From NCBI GenBank assembly GCA_019695185.1, contig JAIBAN010000001.1, forward strand, positions 1 to 64,000: a stretch of 64,000 nucleotides of DNA, written 5' to 3'. Positions 23,279 to 30,786 of this stretch are shown here, piece after piece (within the stretch, counting starts at the first letter, position 1; the number at the start of each line of letters is the position of its first letter). The position numbers and the translations under genes are program-made. This DNA is from Blastocatellia bacterium (GTDB lineage: Bacteria > Acidobacteriota > Blastocatellia > Chloracidobacteriales > Chloracidobacteriaceae). The notes under the pieces are model-generated. The model was given only the letters and a program-made list of their open reading frames with translations, was not told the origin of the DNA and searched no databases.

Positions 23279-23428
23279 GAATTGAGAATTGAGAATTGAG
23301 AATTGAGAATTGAGAATTGAGAATTGAGAGTCAATCACAACAGTTGTACTTTCCATTTCTCACTTTGGTTGTACTTTCCATTGTGGAAACCGTCATCCAG
23401 GTAATTCTCAATTCTCAATTCTCAATTA
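23263..23428. repeat. Inverted GAGAATT array pair between fabF and the M28 peptidase gene
   Basis: The left arm (23263-23330) has about nine copies of GAGAATT and overlaps the end of fabF. The right arm (23403-23428) has about three copies of CTCAATT and overlaps the TAA stop of the convergent peptidase gene. The pair could act as a bidirectional hairpin between convergent genes. Confidence 0.95.
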
Positions 23429-24823
23429 CCTCTGTTGCCGGTATGGTCGCGGATAGACCGCCGGACTTGTGTTCCCATCTTTATCCACTGCCTGCACACC
23501 AAAGAGGAAATTGTCTTTCGAGACATTTTTGACTGTGTACCGGGTCACATTCCCCACAAATTCTGCATGCTGCCAAAATGGGGCGGTCGTTTCGCGCCAA
23601 ACAAGACGATATCCAGCCAAATCAGGGTCCAGATTGGCTTCCCATCTGAGTGTCGTACTGTTTTCCAGTTCAATGGTTTCCATCCCCACGTTTTTCGGTT
23701 GAGCCGGAGCCAACGCCAGGCTGGCCAGTGAAACCGCATTGATACGGGTGACCTGAGCCACATAGCTGAAATCCACAAACTCCGGTAAATCACCAAACTG
23801 CACACCTTTTTCGGTGCGGACGTTCTGGTGCTGATGGCGAAAGTCTTCGTTCGGTTCGGTCATCCGGACGGCTGCAAACCCCCGGTCCAGAAACGGCGAG
23901 TGGTCGCCGCCCCGCAGATACCGGTCCCGCCGGTAAATCACATTCACCGTCATGCCGGGCACGTAGCGTTCCCCTATTTCCTTGATATGCCGTGCCAGTT
24001 GCCGGGTCGGAGAGTCATTTTCCCCGCCGGTTTGGAGCAGGGTGCGCCAGTCGTCCGAGAGTTCGCGGGAAGGCGGAACGCCTTCGGCAAAGAGCCGCAC
24101 CTGGGTGTTGTCAATTTTGCCTGTGTCAGCCCGTGAACTGCCAATGATGTCATTGGTAATCATCCCGGCCACATTGATTTTTTTCTGTTTGGCCAGTTCA
24201 GCCCAATGCGCTGCACCCAGCAGGCCCTGTTCTTCAGCCGCAACGGTCATAAACACCAGTGTGGCGTCAAATTCATATTTTGACATGACCCGTGCCATTT
24301 CCATCACGGCTGCGGTTCCGGAGGCGTCATCATTGGCACCGGGAGCCGCTGAGGTGGCGTCCAGTGCTTCCGACGCCCGCGAATCGTAATGCCCGCTCAC
24401 CACATAGACCCGGTCTTTCGCTTCGGGCTGTTTGCCGGGCAGGGTGGCAACCACATTCACGATTTTAACCGGTTTGGGCACGCGGGCAGTTTCGCTCTGT
24501 ATGAATTCGTCAAACTCCACCTGCAACCTGCCACCTGACTCGCGGCTGTAACGTTCCATTTCCGCCTTAATCCAGCGCCGTGCGGCACCAATGCCGGTGG
24601 TTTCGCTTTCGGTTTCGGAAAGCGTATGGCGGGTGCCGAAACTGACCAGTTTGCGGATGGTTGCTTCAATATTTTTGGCCGAGATTTCACGGGCAATCTG
24701 TTGGATTTGCGGGTTGAGCGCTGGTTTCGTTGTCCTGGTTTTGGGTTTTTGCTGTCCCGGTACGGGCAGAACTGGCAACCCGAGACAGCCCAACAGCAGG
24801 CAGACAAGCAGGCGTTTCGTCAT
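23426..24823 (-). CDS. Secreted M28-family zinc aminopeptidase with C-terminal fibronectin-like domain
   Basis: The 465-residue product has a signal peptide (RLLVCLLLGCLGLPVLPVPG) and then an M28 catalytic domain. The five usual metal and catalytic positions are seen in VSGHYDSR, GANDDASG, AAEEQGLLG, TNDIIG and GGDHSPF. The last 95 residues look like a fibronectin type III domain (STTLRWEANLDPDLAGYRLVW). It probably acts in the periplasm or outside the cell on short peptides. I use ATG 24823 with an AAGGA Shine-Dalgarno sequence; the frame continues upstream. The gene diverges from the ExbB cluster. Confidence 0.92.
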   Translation of the reverse strand: MTKRLLVCLLLGCLGLPVLPVPGQQKPKTRTTKPALNPQIQQIAREISAKNIEATIRKLVSFGTRHTLSETESETTGIGAARRWIKAEMERYSRESGGRLQVEFDEFIQSETARVPKPVKIVNVVATLPGKQPEAKDRVYVVSGHYDSRASEALDATSAAPGANDDASGTAAVMEMARVMSKYEFDATLVFMTVAAEEQGLLGAAHWAELAKQKKINVAGMITNDIIGSSRADTGKIDNTQVRLFAEGVPPSRELSDDWRTLLQTGGENDSPTRQLARHIKEIGERYVPGMTVNVIYRRDRYLRGGDHSPFLDRGFAAVRMTEPNEDFRHQHQNVRTEKGVQFGDLPEFVDFSYVAQVTRINAVSLASLALAPAQPKNVGMETIELENSTTLRWEANLDPDLAGYRLVWRETTAPFWQHAEFVGNVTRYTVKNVSKDNFLFGVQAVDKDGNTSPAVYPRPYRQQR

Positions 24824-24861
24824 AGCTTTTTCCTTGGATGGGGCGAAGCCGGAGATTTTTC

Positions 24862-24890
24862 CGGAACAAGATTGGTGAGGTGGTGTCAAA
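24862..24890 (+). promoter_or_regulatory. ECF-sigma-type promoter motif, copy A (upstream of first ExbB gene)
   Basis: CGGAACAA, 12 bases, then GGTGTCAAA. This gives GGAAC-N17-GTC, the spacing and bases expected for extracytoplasmic-function sigma factors. The same element occurs at 26619 and 27246 with identical spacing. Predicted transcription would begin about 70 bases before the ATG at 24967. Confidence 0.65.
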
Positions 24891-24966
24891 ACGAAATATC
24901 CAGACCGACAATCAAGCCAAAAGAAACCGGAATCGTCAACCGCTGATTCCAGGGAGTTGTGTGCTT

Positions 24967-25902
24967 ATGAACTTTACACCCTCATCCAATTTGATTCCCC
25001 GGCTTCAGGTCCTGTCATGTCTTTGTGTCATGACAGCCGGGGTCGTATCCGCCAGCCTGTTTTTCAATCCCTGTTGGGACGACCCTTACTGCTTCAGTCT
25101 GCGTTTTGTCTTGGTTACGATGAGTTGGTTTGACCTGAGCGTGCGACTGATGCAATACCTGCTGTTTTTTCTGGTTCTGTCAATTGTCACCGAGCGATTG
25201 CTTGTTTTTGAACCAGTAGTCCGGCAAACCCAGGAATTGCTGGCAGAGATACCCTCTATTCTTGAAGAGCAGCAGCTTTGGATGGTGGTCTATCGGGTAT
25301 TGAAAAAACGGAAAAGCCATCTGGCCTCTTTGATTGTCAAAGGGTTGTACCGGTTTGAGTTGTGTCAGGCTTGCGACTGTTCCCGCAAGCTGTTGCTGGA
25401 GAACGTCACAGAGACCCTCCAGCAGGCAAAATGGCAACAAATTATCAAATTGCGGTCCGGGTTGGAGTTGCTGAAAGCGGTGGCCACAACTGCACCTGTC
25501 ATTGGAATGCTGGGAACGGTTGTAAGTATTTTGAATTTGAGTCCCCGGTTTTCAACCATTGGCATGGTCATCCTGAAATCTGGTGGAATGCCGGGCATAA
25601 CCGTTTTGGGATGGGTTTTTCATTCAGGGGCAAGTCTTGCTTTCTGCATTCCGTTTTCGGAAGTGATGGCAGATAAAATTGTGCGGGATGGAATGCTCAC
25701 AACGCTGCTGGGTTTGGCAGTCGGTGTCCCCTCTTTATGGCTGTACCACCATTTTCTGCGAAGAATCGAGGTTTTGACTTACGAAATGGAATGGTTTGAA
25801 GCGGAACTGCTCCGCTATTGCCGCCGCCGCATGAATACAGCAATGCAACAACGCCTCGTGGCTGTTGTTGTGACTTGGGACAACCTGAAAAAGCAGGAAT
25901 AA
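24967..25902 (+). CDS. ExbB/TolQ/MotA-family proton channel protein
   Basis: The 311-residue product has two N-terminal hydrophobic segments, a cytoplasmic helical region of about 110 residues, then APVIGMLGTVVSILNL and LLGLAVGVPSLWLYHHFLRR. The last two are the ExbB/TolQ signature helices. ExbB proteins conduct protons to power TonB. The sequence is diverged and is longer than typical ExbB (about 240 residues). No ExbD gene is seen. ATG 24967 lies ten bases after AGGGAG. The block ATTCC-R-GGGAGTTGTGT around this site recurs before the second ExbB gene at 27351. It is the first of five genes in the cluster. Confidence 0.85.
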   Translation: MNFTPSSNLIPRLQVLSCLCVMTAGVVSASLFFNPCWDDPYCFSLRFVLVTMSWFDLSVRLMQYLLFFLVLSIVTERLLVFEPVVRQTQELLAEIPSILEEQQLWMVVYRVLKKRKSHLASLIVKGLYRFELCQACDCSRKLLLENVTETLQQAKWQQIIKLRSGLELLKAVATTAPVIGMLGTVVSILNLSPRFSTIGMVILKSGGMPGITVLGWVFHSGASLAFCIPFSEVMADKIVRDGMLTTLLGLAVGVPSLWLYHHFLRRIEVLTYEMEWFEAELLRYCRRRMNTAMQQRLVAVVVTWDNLKKQE

Positions 25903-26063
25903 AACAGAGAGCTGTCTTCCCGGATGTGCTTGTGAGAGGTATTCCGGCAGGGTACTATCAGCATTGGTTGAAGTCGCAGGCTCAATCAGGTCTTCGCTGG
26001 AATTCCGAATGATCGAGCCCAAATCCAGACCGCTTTGGAATCAACGGATTGGATTGCCTGCCT

Positions 26064-26510
26064 ATGCCGCTGTCTGCTTCCCTGATTGGAATTTTTTTCC
26101 TTTTCTTGACTCCTGAGGCAGGTTGGGTCCGGCTTGCTGACCAGGATACATCGCCACCTCAAGAGCCGGCTCCCTCCAAAAAACTGCAATCAAAACTCGT
26201 ACAACCGGCCAATGTTCTTTCAGCCAAATCTGTACCCCGTTGGGGCGAAGGTCTTTATCGGGATGCAATTAAACGTGTGTTGCCGGAATATCCCCGCCGT
26301 GCCAAATCACAAAAAATTCAAGGTGACGTTGCGGTTGAATTCATCATTGACGAAAAAGGTGCAGTCAAAAATGCGCGGGCGCTGAATGGTCCCCCGCTCT
26401 TGCAGCGCTCCGCTGTCAAAGCCATCAAACAATGGAAGTTTCCTCCGCCGATAACTGAAGACACTCCAGCCAGACTTACTAAAATTCTCACATTTCGGTT
26501 TGCTCCGTAA
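26064..26510 (+). CDS. TonB C-terminal domain protein, first copy
   Basis: The 148-residue product has an N-terminal hydrophobic segment (SASLIGIFFLFLTPEAG) that serves as signal or anchor, a short polar linker, and a TonB C-terminal domain from about residue 70: PEYPRRAKSQKIQGDVAVEF, then IDEKGAVKNARAL and AVKAIKQWKFPPP. It lacks the long Pro-rich spacer of classical TonB, so reaching outer-membrane receptors is doubtful. ATG 26064 is chosen over a TTG at 26049. No ECF-type motif precedes it; it probably shares the transcript of the upstream ExbB gene, 161 bases away. Confidence 0.85.
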   Translation: MPLSASLIGIFFLFLTPEAGWVRLADQDTSPPQEPAPSKKLQSKLVQPANVLSAKSVPRWGEGLYRDAIKRVLPEYPRRAKSQKIQGDVAVEFIIDEKGAVKNARALNGPPLLQRSAVKAIKQWKFPPPITEDTPARLTKILTFRFAP

Positions 26511-26549
26511 CGGTCTGAGCCAGTTTCAGAACCTGTTGGGAAAGTCGTT

Positions 26550-26585
26550 TTTTGGAGTGCGGTGACAAGTCCCCGCACTCCAAAA
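26550..26585. repeat. REP-like hairpin between the two TonB genes
   Basis: TTTTGGAGTGCGG pairs perfectly with CCGCACTCCAAAA over a ten-base loop. The A-run and T-run at the ends would make it work as a terminator in both directions. Similar GGAGTGCGG palindromes recur in genomes of several soil phyla, so it may be a dispersed repeat that landed here. Confidence 0.7.
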
Positions 26586-26618
26586 TCTGAATCCCCCAGC
26601 CAAAATCAAAGAGTTTTC

Positions 26619-26647
26619 CGGAACAACTCTGTCGTTTGGGTGTCAAA
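26619..26647 (+). promoter_or_regulatory. ECF-sigma-type promoter motif, copy B (upstream of second TonB gene)
   Basis: CGGAACAA-N12-GGTGTCAAA lies about 100 bases before the ATG at 26749 and just after a terminator-like hairpin. This gives the downstream genes their own promoter. Confidence 0.65.
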
Positions 26648-26748
26648 GCCGTTTATTCAGGCTTGTCAGGTCAATTGAAATGGAAGTCCTCACTGGCTGA
26701 TTTCATCTGAATATCCTTTGTTTTTATTTCCCCAAAGGGCTCGCTGAT

Positions 26749-27219
26749 ATGATGCGAATCATTTTCTGTGTCAGTTGTTTCTTTTTCTTTTTTTCAACTA
26801 TGGGACAAGGTGCTATTCAATCCGGTCACCACAAAAGATCAAAACGGGCACGTATTCCCAAAATCGTGCGCCATTCCGAAAGCACCTTTTGTTACAGCAT
26901 TCGTACTTCGTCCTTGCCTCAGATTCCAGCTTTGGCACAGGTTGCCCATCTGGAAGGTGAAACCGTTATCGAAGCTGAAATTGACCATGACGGTGCAGTT
27001 ACCTCCGTGCGTGGTATCAGCGGTCATCCCATTTTCCAAAAAGCGGCTAAGGATGCTGTCCTTCAATGGAGGTTTTATCCGGCTCGCTACGGAACAACAC
27101 GACTGAATTCAGTTTCCTCCATCAAGTTTCGCATTTCGATGGAGGGTGAAGTGTCTTTTGATGAAATCTCCAGACGTGCTACTGAGCCGATTCCTTCACT
27201 CTGTGCCCCGAAGAATTAA
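26749..27219 (+). CDS. TonB C-terminal domain protein, second copy
   Basis: The 156-residue product begins with a Phe-rich signal sequence (IIFCVSCFFFFFSTMGQG), then a basic stretch (HHKRSKRAR), then a TonB C-terminal domain around residues 55-130 with LEGETVIEAEIDHDGAVTSV, ISGHPIFQKAAKDAVLQWRF. The polar tail after it is short. Like its neighbour it has no Pro-rich spacer. It may be an exported, receptor-independent user of the TonB fold. The start is the first of two ATG codons; the second is equally possible. Confidence 0.82.
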   Translation: MMRIIFCVSCFFFFFSTMGQGAIQSGHHKRSKRARIPKIVRHSESTFCYSIRTSSLPQIPALAQVAHLEGETVIEAEIDHDGAVTSVRGISGHPIFQKAAKDAVLQWRFYPARYGTTRLNSVSSIKFRISMEGEVSFDEISRRATEPIPSLCAPKN

Positions 27220-27245
27220 CCCATTACCCGAATGATGCAAAAAGT

Positions 27246-27274
27246 CGGAACAACTCCGGCATTTTGGTGTCAAA
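27246..27274 (+). promoter_or_regulatory. ECF-sigma-type promoter motif, copy C (upstream of second ExbB gene)
   Basis: CGGAACAA-N12-GGTGTCAAA is found 77 bases before the ATG at 27351. The core bases are identical to copies A and B and the spacing is the same. Confidence 0.65.
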
Positions 27275-27350
27275 GACAGGTATCCAACCCAATCAATCAA
27301 CCTCAAACATGAGGAATCTACCAGAATAGATTCCGGGGAGTTGTGTTGCC

Positions 27351-27875
27351 ATGCGCAAACCACAGGCGGAAACCATTGTTCTGAAACAGCCTTGCAATGG
27401 CTTGGCGGTAACGTCAGGGAAGTTTCCCCACAGCCCCATTGCCCAGGTTTTCAAGGCAGGGGTTGAAACCTGGTTCGATTGCCGGAAATCGGGGATTCAG
27501 CTTCCGGAATCCCTGGCCATCGTCCACAACGCTTTGCAGCGGGAACAATTACACCAGCGGCAACGGCTTGCCTTGTGGATGAATTCATTGCGGCTGGTGT
27601 CATCAGTGGCCCCGCTGCTGGGAATGGCTGGGATGACCTATTCCATTTGGCAAAAGTTGTTTATGCCAAGTCATGGAGATAGTGCGTGTGGGTATATGGA
27701 GTCGATTTATGGCATTTTTTCAGAGGGCTTGATTTTTGCTTTATTCGGGTTGGCGGTCGGAGTTCCTGCATGGTGGCTGTTTTGCCATTTTACGGAAACA
27801 TCCGAGCAACTCTTTCATGAGATGGAAACCTGTGCCGAAGATTTAATGGTGTTCTTCCGCCAGCAGTCCCGGTAG
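27351..27875 (+). CDS. Short ExbB-like protein
   Basis: The 174-residue product keeps the last two ExbB/TolQ helices, LRLVSSVAPLLGMAGMTYSI and GLIFALFGLAVGVPAWWLF, and a helical cytoplasmic region before them. It lacks the usual N-terminal helix, so it may be a degenerate or partner subunit. The ATG follows GGGGAG by ten bases, in a sequence nearly the same as that before the first ExbB gene. It is followed after 73 bases by the VIT/vWA gene, likely in one transcript. Confidence 0.75.
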   Translation: MRKPQAETIVLKQPCNGLAVTSGKFPHSPIAQVFKAGVETWFDCRKSGIQLPESLAIVHNALQREQLHQRQRLALWMNSLRLVSSVAPLLGMAGMTYSIWQKLFMPSHGDSACGYMESIYGIFSEGLIFALFGLAVGVPAWWLFCHFTETSEQLFHEMETCAEDLMVFFRQQSR

Positions 27876-27948: not shown

Positions 27949-30786
27949 ATGCAACGCAAACAATTGATTTCATTGACTGTTTTTTTCTTCCTGGGTGTGC
28001 TTGTTTCCTTGTTTTTAGGAAAGCCGATTCCACAACTTGACTTGGTTCCTGTGGTGGAAGCCGCCGGGCATGAAACCGCCGGGCAACTGACAACCCTTGA
28101 CCTGGAGCAAAAACCAAAAGGCACCTGTCCGCTCAAGCATACGGATGTCAAAGCCAATATCAGCGGATTTCTGGCACGGGTGACCGTCACCCAGGAATTC
28201 ATCAACCCGTTCAAGGAAAAAATCGAAGCCGTTTATACGTTCCCGCTCCCGCACCGGGCAGCCGTGGACGATATGACCATGCGCATTGGCTCCCGGACCA
28301 TCCGGGGAGCCATCAAAATGCGTGAGGAGGCCCAGGCCATCTATCAGGCAGCTCGTGACAACGGCTATCGGGCCGCGTTGTTGGACCAGGAACGCCCCAA
28401 CATTTTCACCCAATCGGTGGCCAATATCCTGCCGGGAGAATCAATTACGGTCATCATCAGCTATGTGGAAACGCTCCGGTATGAAGAGGGAAAATACAAT
28501 TTTGTTTTCCCGATGATGGTGGGCGAACGCTATACCCCAAACCAGACCGGTGCAGAAGGAGCGATTGACGCTGCCCGTATCTCGCCGCCACGGATGCGCC
28601 AGGGAATGCGGGCCGGGCATGACATTTCGATTGATGTGACGCTGGATGCCGGGGTTCCGCTGAACAGTGTCCGTTCGGCCACCCATGAACTCAATCTGGC
28701 AGTGCATAATCAAACCACCGCACACGCCAGCCTGCGCCAAAGGAATGTCATTCCAAATCAGGATTTTACGCTTTCCTATGAAGTGGCGGGAAAGACGGTA
28801 ACGGATGCCATGCTCATGCACCGGGCACCGGAAAGCGGGTATTTCACAATGCTGCTTCAGCCGCCCCAACGGGTCGCAGCCCCTGATGTCAATCCCAAAG
28901 AACTGGTTTTTGTGTTGGATACGTCGGGTTCAATGGAAGGCTTTCCAATTGAGAAGGCCAAGGAATGTATGACCCTGGCCCTCAATAACCTGTATCCGTC
29001 AGATACGTTCAATCTGATTACGTTTGCCGGAGACACCCAAGTGCTTTTTCCCAAACCGGTTCCGGCCACACCGGAAAACCTGACTCGTGCCCGGAAGTTT
29101 TTGCAATCTCGAAATGGCAGTGGCGGGACCGAGATGATGCAGGCTATCCGCACAGCTTTGGCTCCTTCGGATGCACCGGACCACCTCCGCATTGTGTGTT
29201 TTATGACCGACGGGTACGTTGGGAATGATGCGGAAATCCTGCATGAAATCCGTACCCATCCCAGAGCGCGGGTTTTTTCCTTTGGCATTGGAGATTCCGT
29301 CAACCGGTACTTGCTTGACGGCATGGCCGAGGCCGGACGAGGCGAGGCGGAGTATGTTTCGCTCAATGCGGACGGTTCAGCCGCCGCCCGCCGGTTCCAC
29401 GAGCGGATTCGTAACCCACTCCTGACTGATATTTCCCTTGATTGGGGAGGCTTACCGGTAAAGGATGTTTATCCGGAGACGATTCCCGACCTTTTTTCCG
29501 TCAAACCGGTGGTGGTCACAGGACGATTTACTGGCAGCGGACGAGGCACGCTCCGGCTTAAAGGCACCATGCGCGGGCAGCCCTTTGTGAAGGAAATCCC
29601 GGTTGTCTTTCCTGAAACCGAACCGAATCACGATGTTTTGGCAACACTCTGGGCCCGCACCCGGATTGGAGTTTTGACCGAACAGCTCCAGGATGAAGAG
29701 GAGCGCGACCAAGCGCGATTGGAAATTACCGAACTTGGCCTGGCGTATGGGTTGCTGACGCCCTTTACCTCATTCGTAGCGGTCGAAGACCAGCCCGTCA
29801 CTGATTCCGAGCGTCCGCAACGGGTTGATGTCCCGCTTGAAGCACCCGCCGAACCCCGTATCGCTTCGCCGCCACCTGATGGCGTGACTGCAAAAACACA
29901 ACCTGTGAATATGCCGGTTCCAGCCTTTACACCACCCAAAGAAGTTCCAAAAGCAACTCCCACCCCAAAGACACTGGCAAGTGTTAAATCTCAATCTGAT
30001 GGGGATTCAACCGGAGTCCCTGGAGGAGTTCCCGGAGGTGCTCCCGGCGGTGTGATTGGCGGTGTTTTGGGGGCGGTTGGTGCTGCCGAACCTCCACCAC
30101 CTCCACCAAGCAGGGAGGGCACCTCACTCCCACCGCCTTCCATTGTGCGCCGCAGTGAAGGAGTCTTGCGCGGAACCGCCTTAAACCGGGCGGTGCCGGA
30201 GTATCCATCATTGGCGATGACAGCACGGGCCAGTGGTGATGTGGTGATTGAAGTTGTCATTGATGAAGTGGGGACGGTTGCCCATGCCCGTGTGATAAGC
30301 GGCCATCCATTGCTCCAGCAAGGTGCGTTGGCCGCAGCCAGGCAATGGAGGTTCCAGCCGACCATGTTAAATCAGCAACCGGTGCGGGTAACCGGGCTTT
30401 TGACGTTCCGATTTGTTTTGGGTGAAACGGAAGGTCCGATTGTCCAGCAACCTGCACAATCCAGACCGGACCCGGAACGGGTGACTTCGTGGATGACAGT
30501 ATTGCTTCCCAAGGCACATCCAACCATCATCCGGTTGCTTGAATGGAACAAAGCTGCTCCAGGTGGGGCTGTCCCTGCCAAATTCAATTTTGTCAAAAAC
30601 GGAAAAGCCGAGGTGACGGTGACGGTCAAAGACCTTTCACCCCAAACTGTGGCCGAACTGAAATCACTCGGTTTTGAACCAGTCGGTATGAACCAACCAG
30701 GGAAAGTCGTGTTGGGACGGATTGCGATTGAACACCTTGCGAAGCTGATTCAATTGCCAGCAGTTCGGATGGTCTCACCGATGTAA
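27949..30786 (+). CDS. VIT-von Willebrand A-TonB fusion protein, exported
   Basis: The 945-residue product has an N-terminal hydrophobic signal or anchor (residues 6-25) and a VIT (vault inter-alpha-trypsin) domain (about 60-185). A von Willebrand A domain follows from about 318, with the complete metal site start FVLDTSGSMEG. A low-complexity Pro/Gly linker with repeated GGVPGGAPGG and a PPPPPP run leads to a TonB C-terminal domain (745-825; PEYPSLAMTARASGDVVIEV, QQGALAAARQWRFQP). About 100 further residues of unknown fold end the protein. VIT-vWA proteins usually face the periplasm. The TonB module makes it a possible partner of the ExbB-like proteins. GGAGG precedes ATG 27949. A CTGAGGA array lies just after the stop. 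Confidence 0.9.
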   Translation: MQRKQLISLTVFFFLGVLVSLFLGKPIPQLDLVPVVEAAGHETAGQLTTLDLEQKPKGTCPLKHTDVKANISGFLARVTVTQEFINPFKEKIEAVYTFPLPHRAAVDDMTMRIGSRTIRGAIKMREEAQAIYQAARDNGYRAALLDQERPNIFTQSVANILPGESITVIISYVETLRYEEGKYNFVFPMMVGERYTPNQTGAEGAIDAARISPPRMRQGMRAGHDISIDVTLDAGVPLNSVRSATHELNLAVHNQTTAHASLRQRNVIPNQDFTLSYEVAGKTVTDAMLMHRAPESGYFTMLLQPPQRVAAPDVNPKELVFVLDTSGSMEGFPIEKAKECMTLALNNLYPSDTFNLITFAGDTQVLFPKPVPATPENLTRARKFLQSRNGSGGTEMMQAIRTALAPSDAPDHLRIVCFMTDGYVGNDAEILHEIRTHPRARVFSFGIGDSVNRYLLDGMAEAGRGEAEYVSLNADGSAAARRFHERIRNPLLTDISLDWGGLPVKDVYPETIPDLFSVKPVVVTGRFTGSGRGTLRLKGTMRGQPFVKEIPVVFPETEPNHDVLATLWARTRIGVLTEQLQDEEERDQARLEITELGLAYGLLTPFTSFVAVEDQPVTDSERPQRVDVPLEAPAEPRIASPPPDGVTAKTQPVNMPVPAFTPPKEVPKATPTPKTLASVKSQSDGDSTGVPGGVPGGAPGGVIGGVLGAVGAAEPPPPPPSREGTSLPPPSIVRRSEGVLRGTALNRAVPEYPSLAMTARASGDVVIEVVIDEVGTVAHARVISGHPLLQQGALAAARQWRFQPTMLNQQPVRVTGLLTFRFVLGETEGPIVQQPAQSRPDPERVTSWMTVLLPKAHPTIIRLLEWNKAAPGGAVPAKFNFVKNGKAEVTVTVKDLSPQTVAELKSLGFEPVGMNQPGKVVLGRIAIEHLAKLIQLPAVRMVSPM

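Follow-up and report, generated by a model that had tools for sequence, protein, structure and literature searches.

The window analyzed here (64,000 nucleotides of contig JAIBAN010000001.1 from a Blastocatellia bacterium) contains at 24967-27875 a cluster of two divergent ExbB genes, whose products share 26-27% sequence identity with an ExbB protein encoded on another contig (C69), and two genes for TonB_C proteins. No ExbD gene was found in this cluster. ExbB1 (24967-25902, plus strand; PF01618, E 5.5e-13) belongs to the MotA/TolQ/ExbB family, as does the short protein ExbB2 (27351-27875, plus strand; PF01618, E 2.5e-7), in which the GTV and TxxGL stretches retained by both ExbB1 and the C69 ExbB are altered. 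TonB1 (26049-26510, plus strand; PF03544, E 1.1e-17) and TonB2 (26749-27219, plus strand; PF03544, E 2.1e-10) each combine a TonB_C domain with a signal-peptide-like N-terminus. About 73 nt after ExbB2 begins a gene on the same strand (27949-30786) for a VIT/VWA protein with a C-terminal TonB_C domain (PF08487, PF13768 and PF03544), which is related to TIGR03788. On the other side of the cluster, an M28 peptidase gene (23426-24823, minus strand; PF04389, E 7.6e-29) is divergent from ExbB1 and borders the intergenic region upstream of it. Between this gene and a beta-ketoacyl synthase gene, tandem GAATTGA repeats face their own inverted copy (23300-23427), forming a possible hairpin.

The motif CGGAACAA-N12-GGTGTCAAA is present in the window in exactly three copies, all of them exact and all on the plus strand, which confirms the positions given by an earlier sequence-only reading. 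The predicted promoter 1 (24862-24890; -35 box GGAACAA, -10 box GGTGTCAAA) lies in the intergenic region 24824-24966, promoter 2 (26619-26647) in 26511-26748 and promoter 3 (27246-27274) in 27220-27350. The start codon follows the -10 box after 76 nt at ExbB1 (ATG at 24967), 101 nt at TonB2 (ATG at 26749) and 76 nt at ExbB2 (ATG at 27351), in line with the 70-100 bases proposed by that reading, which also correctly described spacers of equal length and different sequence: the three spacers have diverged, and the boxes are identical. No site was found ahead of TonB1 (25903-26048), and this gene is probably transcribed from promoter 1. Promoter 3 probably also serves the VIT/VWA/TonB_C gene located 3' of ExbB2.

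The motif had been claimed to be absent from the rest of the window, and even with a tolerance of three mismatches only these three matches were recovered, compared to 0.32 expected by chance; none of 100 shuffled windows reached three matches, ruling out a chance origin. The whole 8.33 Mb genome contains no further exact copy of the 28-mer GGAACAA-N12-GGTGTCAAA. The assignment to promoters of extracytoplasmic function (ECF) sigma factors stood with regard to the boxes, which are identical to the consensus of the sigma-E type (-35 GGAACTTTT, -10 GTCAAA; PMC1804206), and to the specificity of their spacing, whereas the minimal pattern GGAAC-N17-GTC was not significant by itself (four matches in the window against 2.2 expected). 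Thus, the signal is carried by the longer boxes.

Using the core GGAAC-N15-GTGTC-N-AA, we found 11 exact sites in the genome, the window trio and eight more, of which 10 are outside coding frames and precede a gene. When the spacer was varied from 4 to 26 nucleotides, 11 of 42 matches fell on N15, and the other lengths had 1.4 matches each on average (P about 3e-7; leaving out the window trio, P about 1e-4). The reversed control pattern gave no match in this genome, compared to 11 for the real pattern, and 20 matches compared to 61 in 38 relatives, where sites with N16 spacing also occur. Two matches were treated as chance, one to the core inside a coding frame (C112:10703) and one with N16 spacing that overlaps a long frame on the opposite strand (C210:6250). 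Matches with one mismatch are mostly background (63 versus 60 for the reversed pattern), and therefore only those ahead of Ton genes were used. The combination of a GGAAC -35 box and a GTC(A/T)AA -10 box at fixed spacing upstream of genes is that of sigma-E-type promoters, and these sequence data support the view that the three window sites represent a genuine promoter set of the ECF type.

Exact sites (N15 or N16) precede ExbB1, TonB2 and ExbB2 in the window, two TonB genes in the main Ton cluster (TonB-TonB-ExbB-ExbD-ExbD) on contig C69, a further ExbD gene on C69, a gene for a PH/zinc-ribbon protein and an ECF sigma factor gene on contig C11. Five exact targets other than these Ton genes and the ECF gene encode an alpha-2-macroglobulin (A2M), an ankyrin protein, this PH-domain protein and two proteins without a Pfam match. 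Sites with one mismatch were found ahead of TonB genes on C200, C217 and C190 and of ExbD genes on C212 and C125. Excluding the ECF gene, Ton genes account for six of the 11 first genes at exact sites (hypergeometric P about 2e-12, with the gene number of the genome taken as about 6900), and the enrichment persists without the window trio (P about 3e-6). Directly or in an apparent operon, a site precedes all three ExbB genes, all five ExbD genes (two of them with one mismatch) and 10 of the 23 TonB_C genes. Thus, as judged from site positions, one ECF factor appears to control every ExbB and ExbD motor gene of this acidobacterium.

In the main Ton operon, the site is separated from the TonB start by about 420-490 nt (L083:9106-9595; similarly in the relatives L170, L259 and L261). 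This leader is far longer than at most other targets and is kept in several genomes of the same family; the leader of this genome has no match to a known RNA element in Rfam. On contig C34 (L321/L323, G000:C34:111791-112324), a single frame of 780 amino acids encodes a protein in which a metalloprotease-like motif (HELVH) accompanies two TonB_C domains. This protein resembles BlaR1-type sensors, placing TonB_C again on a likely signalling protein.

Sites in related genomes precede TonB, ExbD, VIT/VWA, other envelope and PH/zinc-ribbon genes as well as the ECF gene. In a search started from ExbB, 18 of 39 genomes (including this genome) had a sense-strand site with no more than one mismatch in the 4 kb ahead of the gene, and the antisense control gave none in 39. 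The best ExbB of the other 21 genomes showed no such site in the fetched upstream stretch, with a few of these stretches cut by contig ends. All genomes of the same family with enough sequence upstream of ExbB have a site.

No sigma factor gene had been seen in the window, and indeed no sigma-70 region 2 match falls within it, the contig having a single one, at 257 kb. A search of the genome for targets and ECF genes, proposed as a check by the sequence-only reading, pointed to contig C11. From the 34 sigma-70 family (region 2) genes found in the genome, only the C11 ECF gene (G000:C11:127859-128521, corresponding to L080:7860-8522; minus strand of C11) has a site directly ahead of it, about 71 nt before its start. 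The encoded protein contains sigma regions 2 (PF04542, E 7.7e-18) and 4 (PF08281, E 3.9e-15) and no complete region 3, with Sigma70_r3 giving a weak match of 17 residues. Its nearest named family is RpoE, but the score against the RpoE equivalog TIGR02939 (151 bits) is below the cut-off of 236, so it is designated as sigma-E-like and not as RpoE. Orthologues are present across the class, and 26 of 30 have a site with at most one mismatch (N15 or N16) within 300 bp upstream, compared to none in 1200 shuffles. This conserved self-promoter, the pattern of an autoregulated ECF gene as far as sequence can tell, makes the C11 ECF very probably the cognate factor. The pattern extends to some members further away in the phylum, with exact N16 sites and TonB_C-like ends of the anti-sigma factors in L396 and L397, and is missing in other distant Acidobacteriota. 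Divergent to the C11 ECF gene is a DUF4139-like gene (L080:8543-10849), and a similar gene in the relative G033 (L289:183-2381) has a site directly upstream. Elsewhere in the genome (G000:C182:56912-59620), a gene with a weak sigma-70 region 2 match adjoins two TonB_C genes without the motif, which is perhaps a second, separate ECF-TonB association.

The number of sigma-70 family genes also leaves room for the sites to be read by another ECF of the genome or by a group of ECFs whose specificities overlap, with the C11 ECF being just one more target, and GGAAC -35 boxes are common to many ECF groups. However, ECF genes usually transcribe themselves, no other sigma gene has a site directly upstream, and the retention of the site by the C11 orthologues also argues against this explanation, which we regard as improbable. 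Even less credible is the proposal that the three copies are functionless remnants from the duplication of one ExbB/TonB gene together with its upstream region. The ExbB and TonB genes are paralogous, and sites 1 and 3 are alike beyond the boxes, in further upstream sequence and in the ribosome-binding region, so common descent does explain part of their similarity. It does not account for boxes that stayed unchanged while the spacers diverged, or for the same boxes at the same spacing ahead of unrelated genes (ECF, ExbD, A2M and PH-domain protein) and ahead of orthologues in other families. Finally, two boxes at fixed spacing could in principle form a bipartite operator for a DNA-binding regulator. 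This is most unlikely, as the boxes lack any palindromic or direct-repeat structure, equal the -35 and -10 elements of sigma-E, always have the same orientation relative to the gene and are also conserved ahead of an ECF gene. Thus, we consider it highly likely that the window sites represent promoters of a sigma-E-like ECF factor, for which the C11 ECF is the predicted cognate.

The gene directly after the C11 ECF encodes a zf-HC2 protein, a putative anti-sigma factor. The zf-HC2 domain is present in 21 of 23 members of this group, and inspection of the alignment by eye shows a hydrophobic segment, with a conserved module at the C-terminus. Pfam detected TonB_C in eight of the 23 members, with weak scores (best E 1.3e-4), and as a single sequence the protein scores below the Pfam cut-off. 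A profile-profile comparison between the anti-sigma C-terminus and the TonB_C domains encoded in this genome gave a match at 93% (E 3.4e-7). In the structural model of the homologue L089, the C-terminus adopts a beta-beta-alpha-beta arrangement, which together with the profile match indicates a TonB_C-like domain. The top Foldseek matches of this model in the PDB were TonB C-terminal domains followed by the zinc-binding anti-sigma domains of RsiW and RslA. However, the best E-value was no lower than 9e-3, and the model has low confidence (pLDDT 52) and, apart from the two end domains, is of poor quality. The zf-HC2 domain, the location of the gene next to the ECF gene and the similarity to RsiW and RslA place this protein in the zinc-binding anti-sigma class.

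In the circuit that we propose, the C11 ECF would transcribe its own gene and the anti-sigma gene from the same promoter type and would drive Ton energy-transduction genes, including the C69 cluster, the window cluster, further ExbD and TonB genes, and some envelope proteins. The zinc-binding N-terminal domain of the anti-sigma factor would bind the ECF and hold it at the inner membrane, with the C-terminal domain of the TonB fold exposed to the periplasm; this topology is predicted, as are the operon extents. Release of the ECF, and with it the production of more Ton motor, would follow a signal from the envelope, which probably is the state of the Ton system or the load on it. Sensing of the Ton system by the TonB-like domain is a tentative suggestion; this domain might pair with TonB or compete for its outer-membrane partners. 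Equally speculative is a dedicated homeostatic loop, in which the domain would report Ton supply or load and the freed ECF would raise all ExbB and ExbD genes jointly with many TonB genes. If true, such a loop would be old in Acidobacteriota.

To our knowledge, it is largely open how the quantity of Ton motor in a bacterial cell is fitted to the need for it; the best-studied systems have regulated transporters and a shared Ton motor. In this genome, the entire ExbB/ExbD set seems to belong to one sigma factor, whose inhibitor bears a copy of the TonB effector domain, so that Ton homeostasis can be tested directly in a phylum that has received little study. The TonB-like end of the anti-sigma factor hints that the cell may sense and adjust its own machinery for energy transfer to the outer membrane. 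In addition, the regulon and its promoter motif can be used for the annotation of Acidobacteriota genomes. In the literature searched, we found neither an ECF/anti-sigma pair with a TonB_C domain nor an acidobacterial ECF-Ton regulon, although absence there is no proof of novelty; the circuit is a variation on the ECF/anti-sigma theme that is undescribed in that literature.

Several known systems share parts of this arrangement. Sigma-E (RpoE/RseA) of gammaproteobacteria has the same type of promoter (-35 GGAACTT and -10 GTCAAA with similar spacing), ECF autoregulation, an adjoining gene for a membrane anti-sigma factor and envelope targets. In contrast, the regulon described here is centred on TonB, ExbB and ExbD, the anti-sigma factor combines a zinc-finger N-terminus with a periplasmic domain of the TonB_C fold, and the ECF itself scores under the RpoE equivalog cut-off. 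RsiW and RslA have the same zf-HC2-type sigma-inhibiting domain at the N-terminus, but the TonB_C-like periplasmic domain distinguishes the acidobacterial protein from both. The FecI/FecR system of iron-carrier cell-surface signalling also links an ECF and a transmembrane anti-sigma factor to the Ton system, with TonB powering the receptor signalling through FecR and transport genes as targets (reviewed in PMC9249621). The circuit proposed here instead targets the genes of the Ton motor, and no FecR domain was detected in the 23 anti-sigma members, which do not class as FecR-type. The nearest precedent is the cell-surface signalling system PUMA3/Vre (VreA-VreI-VreR) of Pseudomonas aeruginosa, in which the signalling protein VreA has a TolA/TonB-like C-terminal domain and an STN-type signalling domain, and overexpression of the ECF VreI increases the expression of many genes, including exbB2 and exbD2 (PMC2729926). 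However, the TonB-like domain of PUMA3 is located on the separate protein VreA, whereas in the acidobacterial system it is found on the anti-sigma factor and the predicted regulon extends to all ExbB and ExbD genes.
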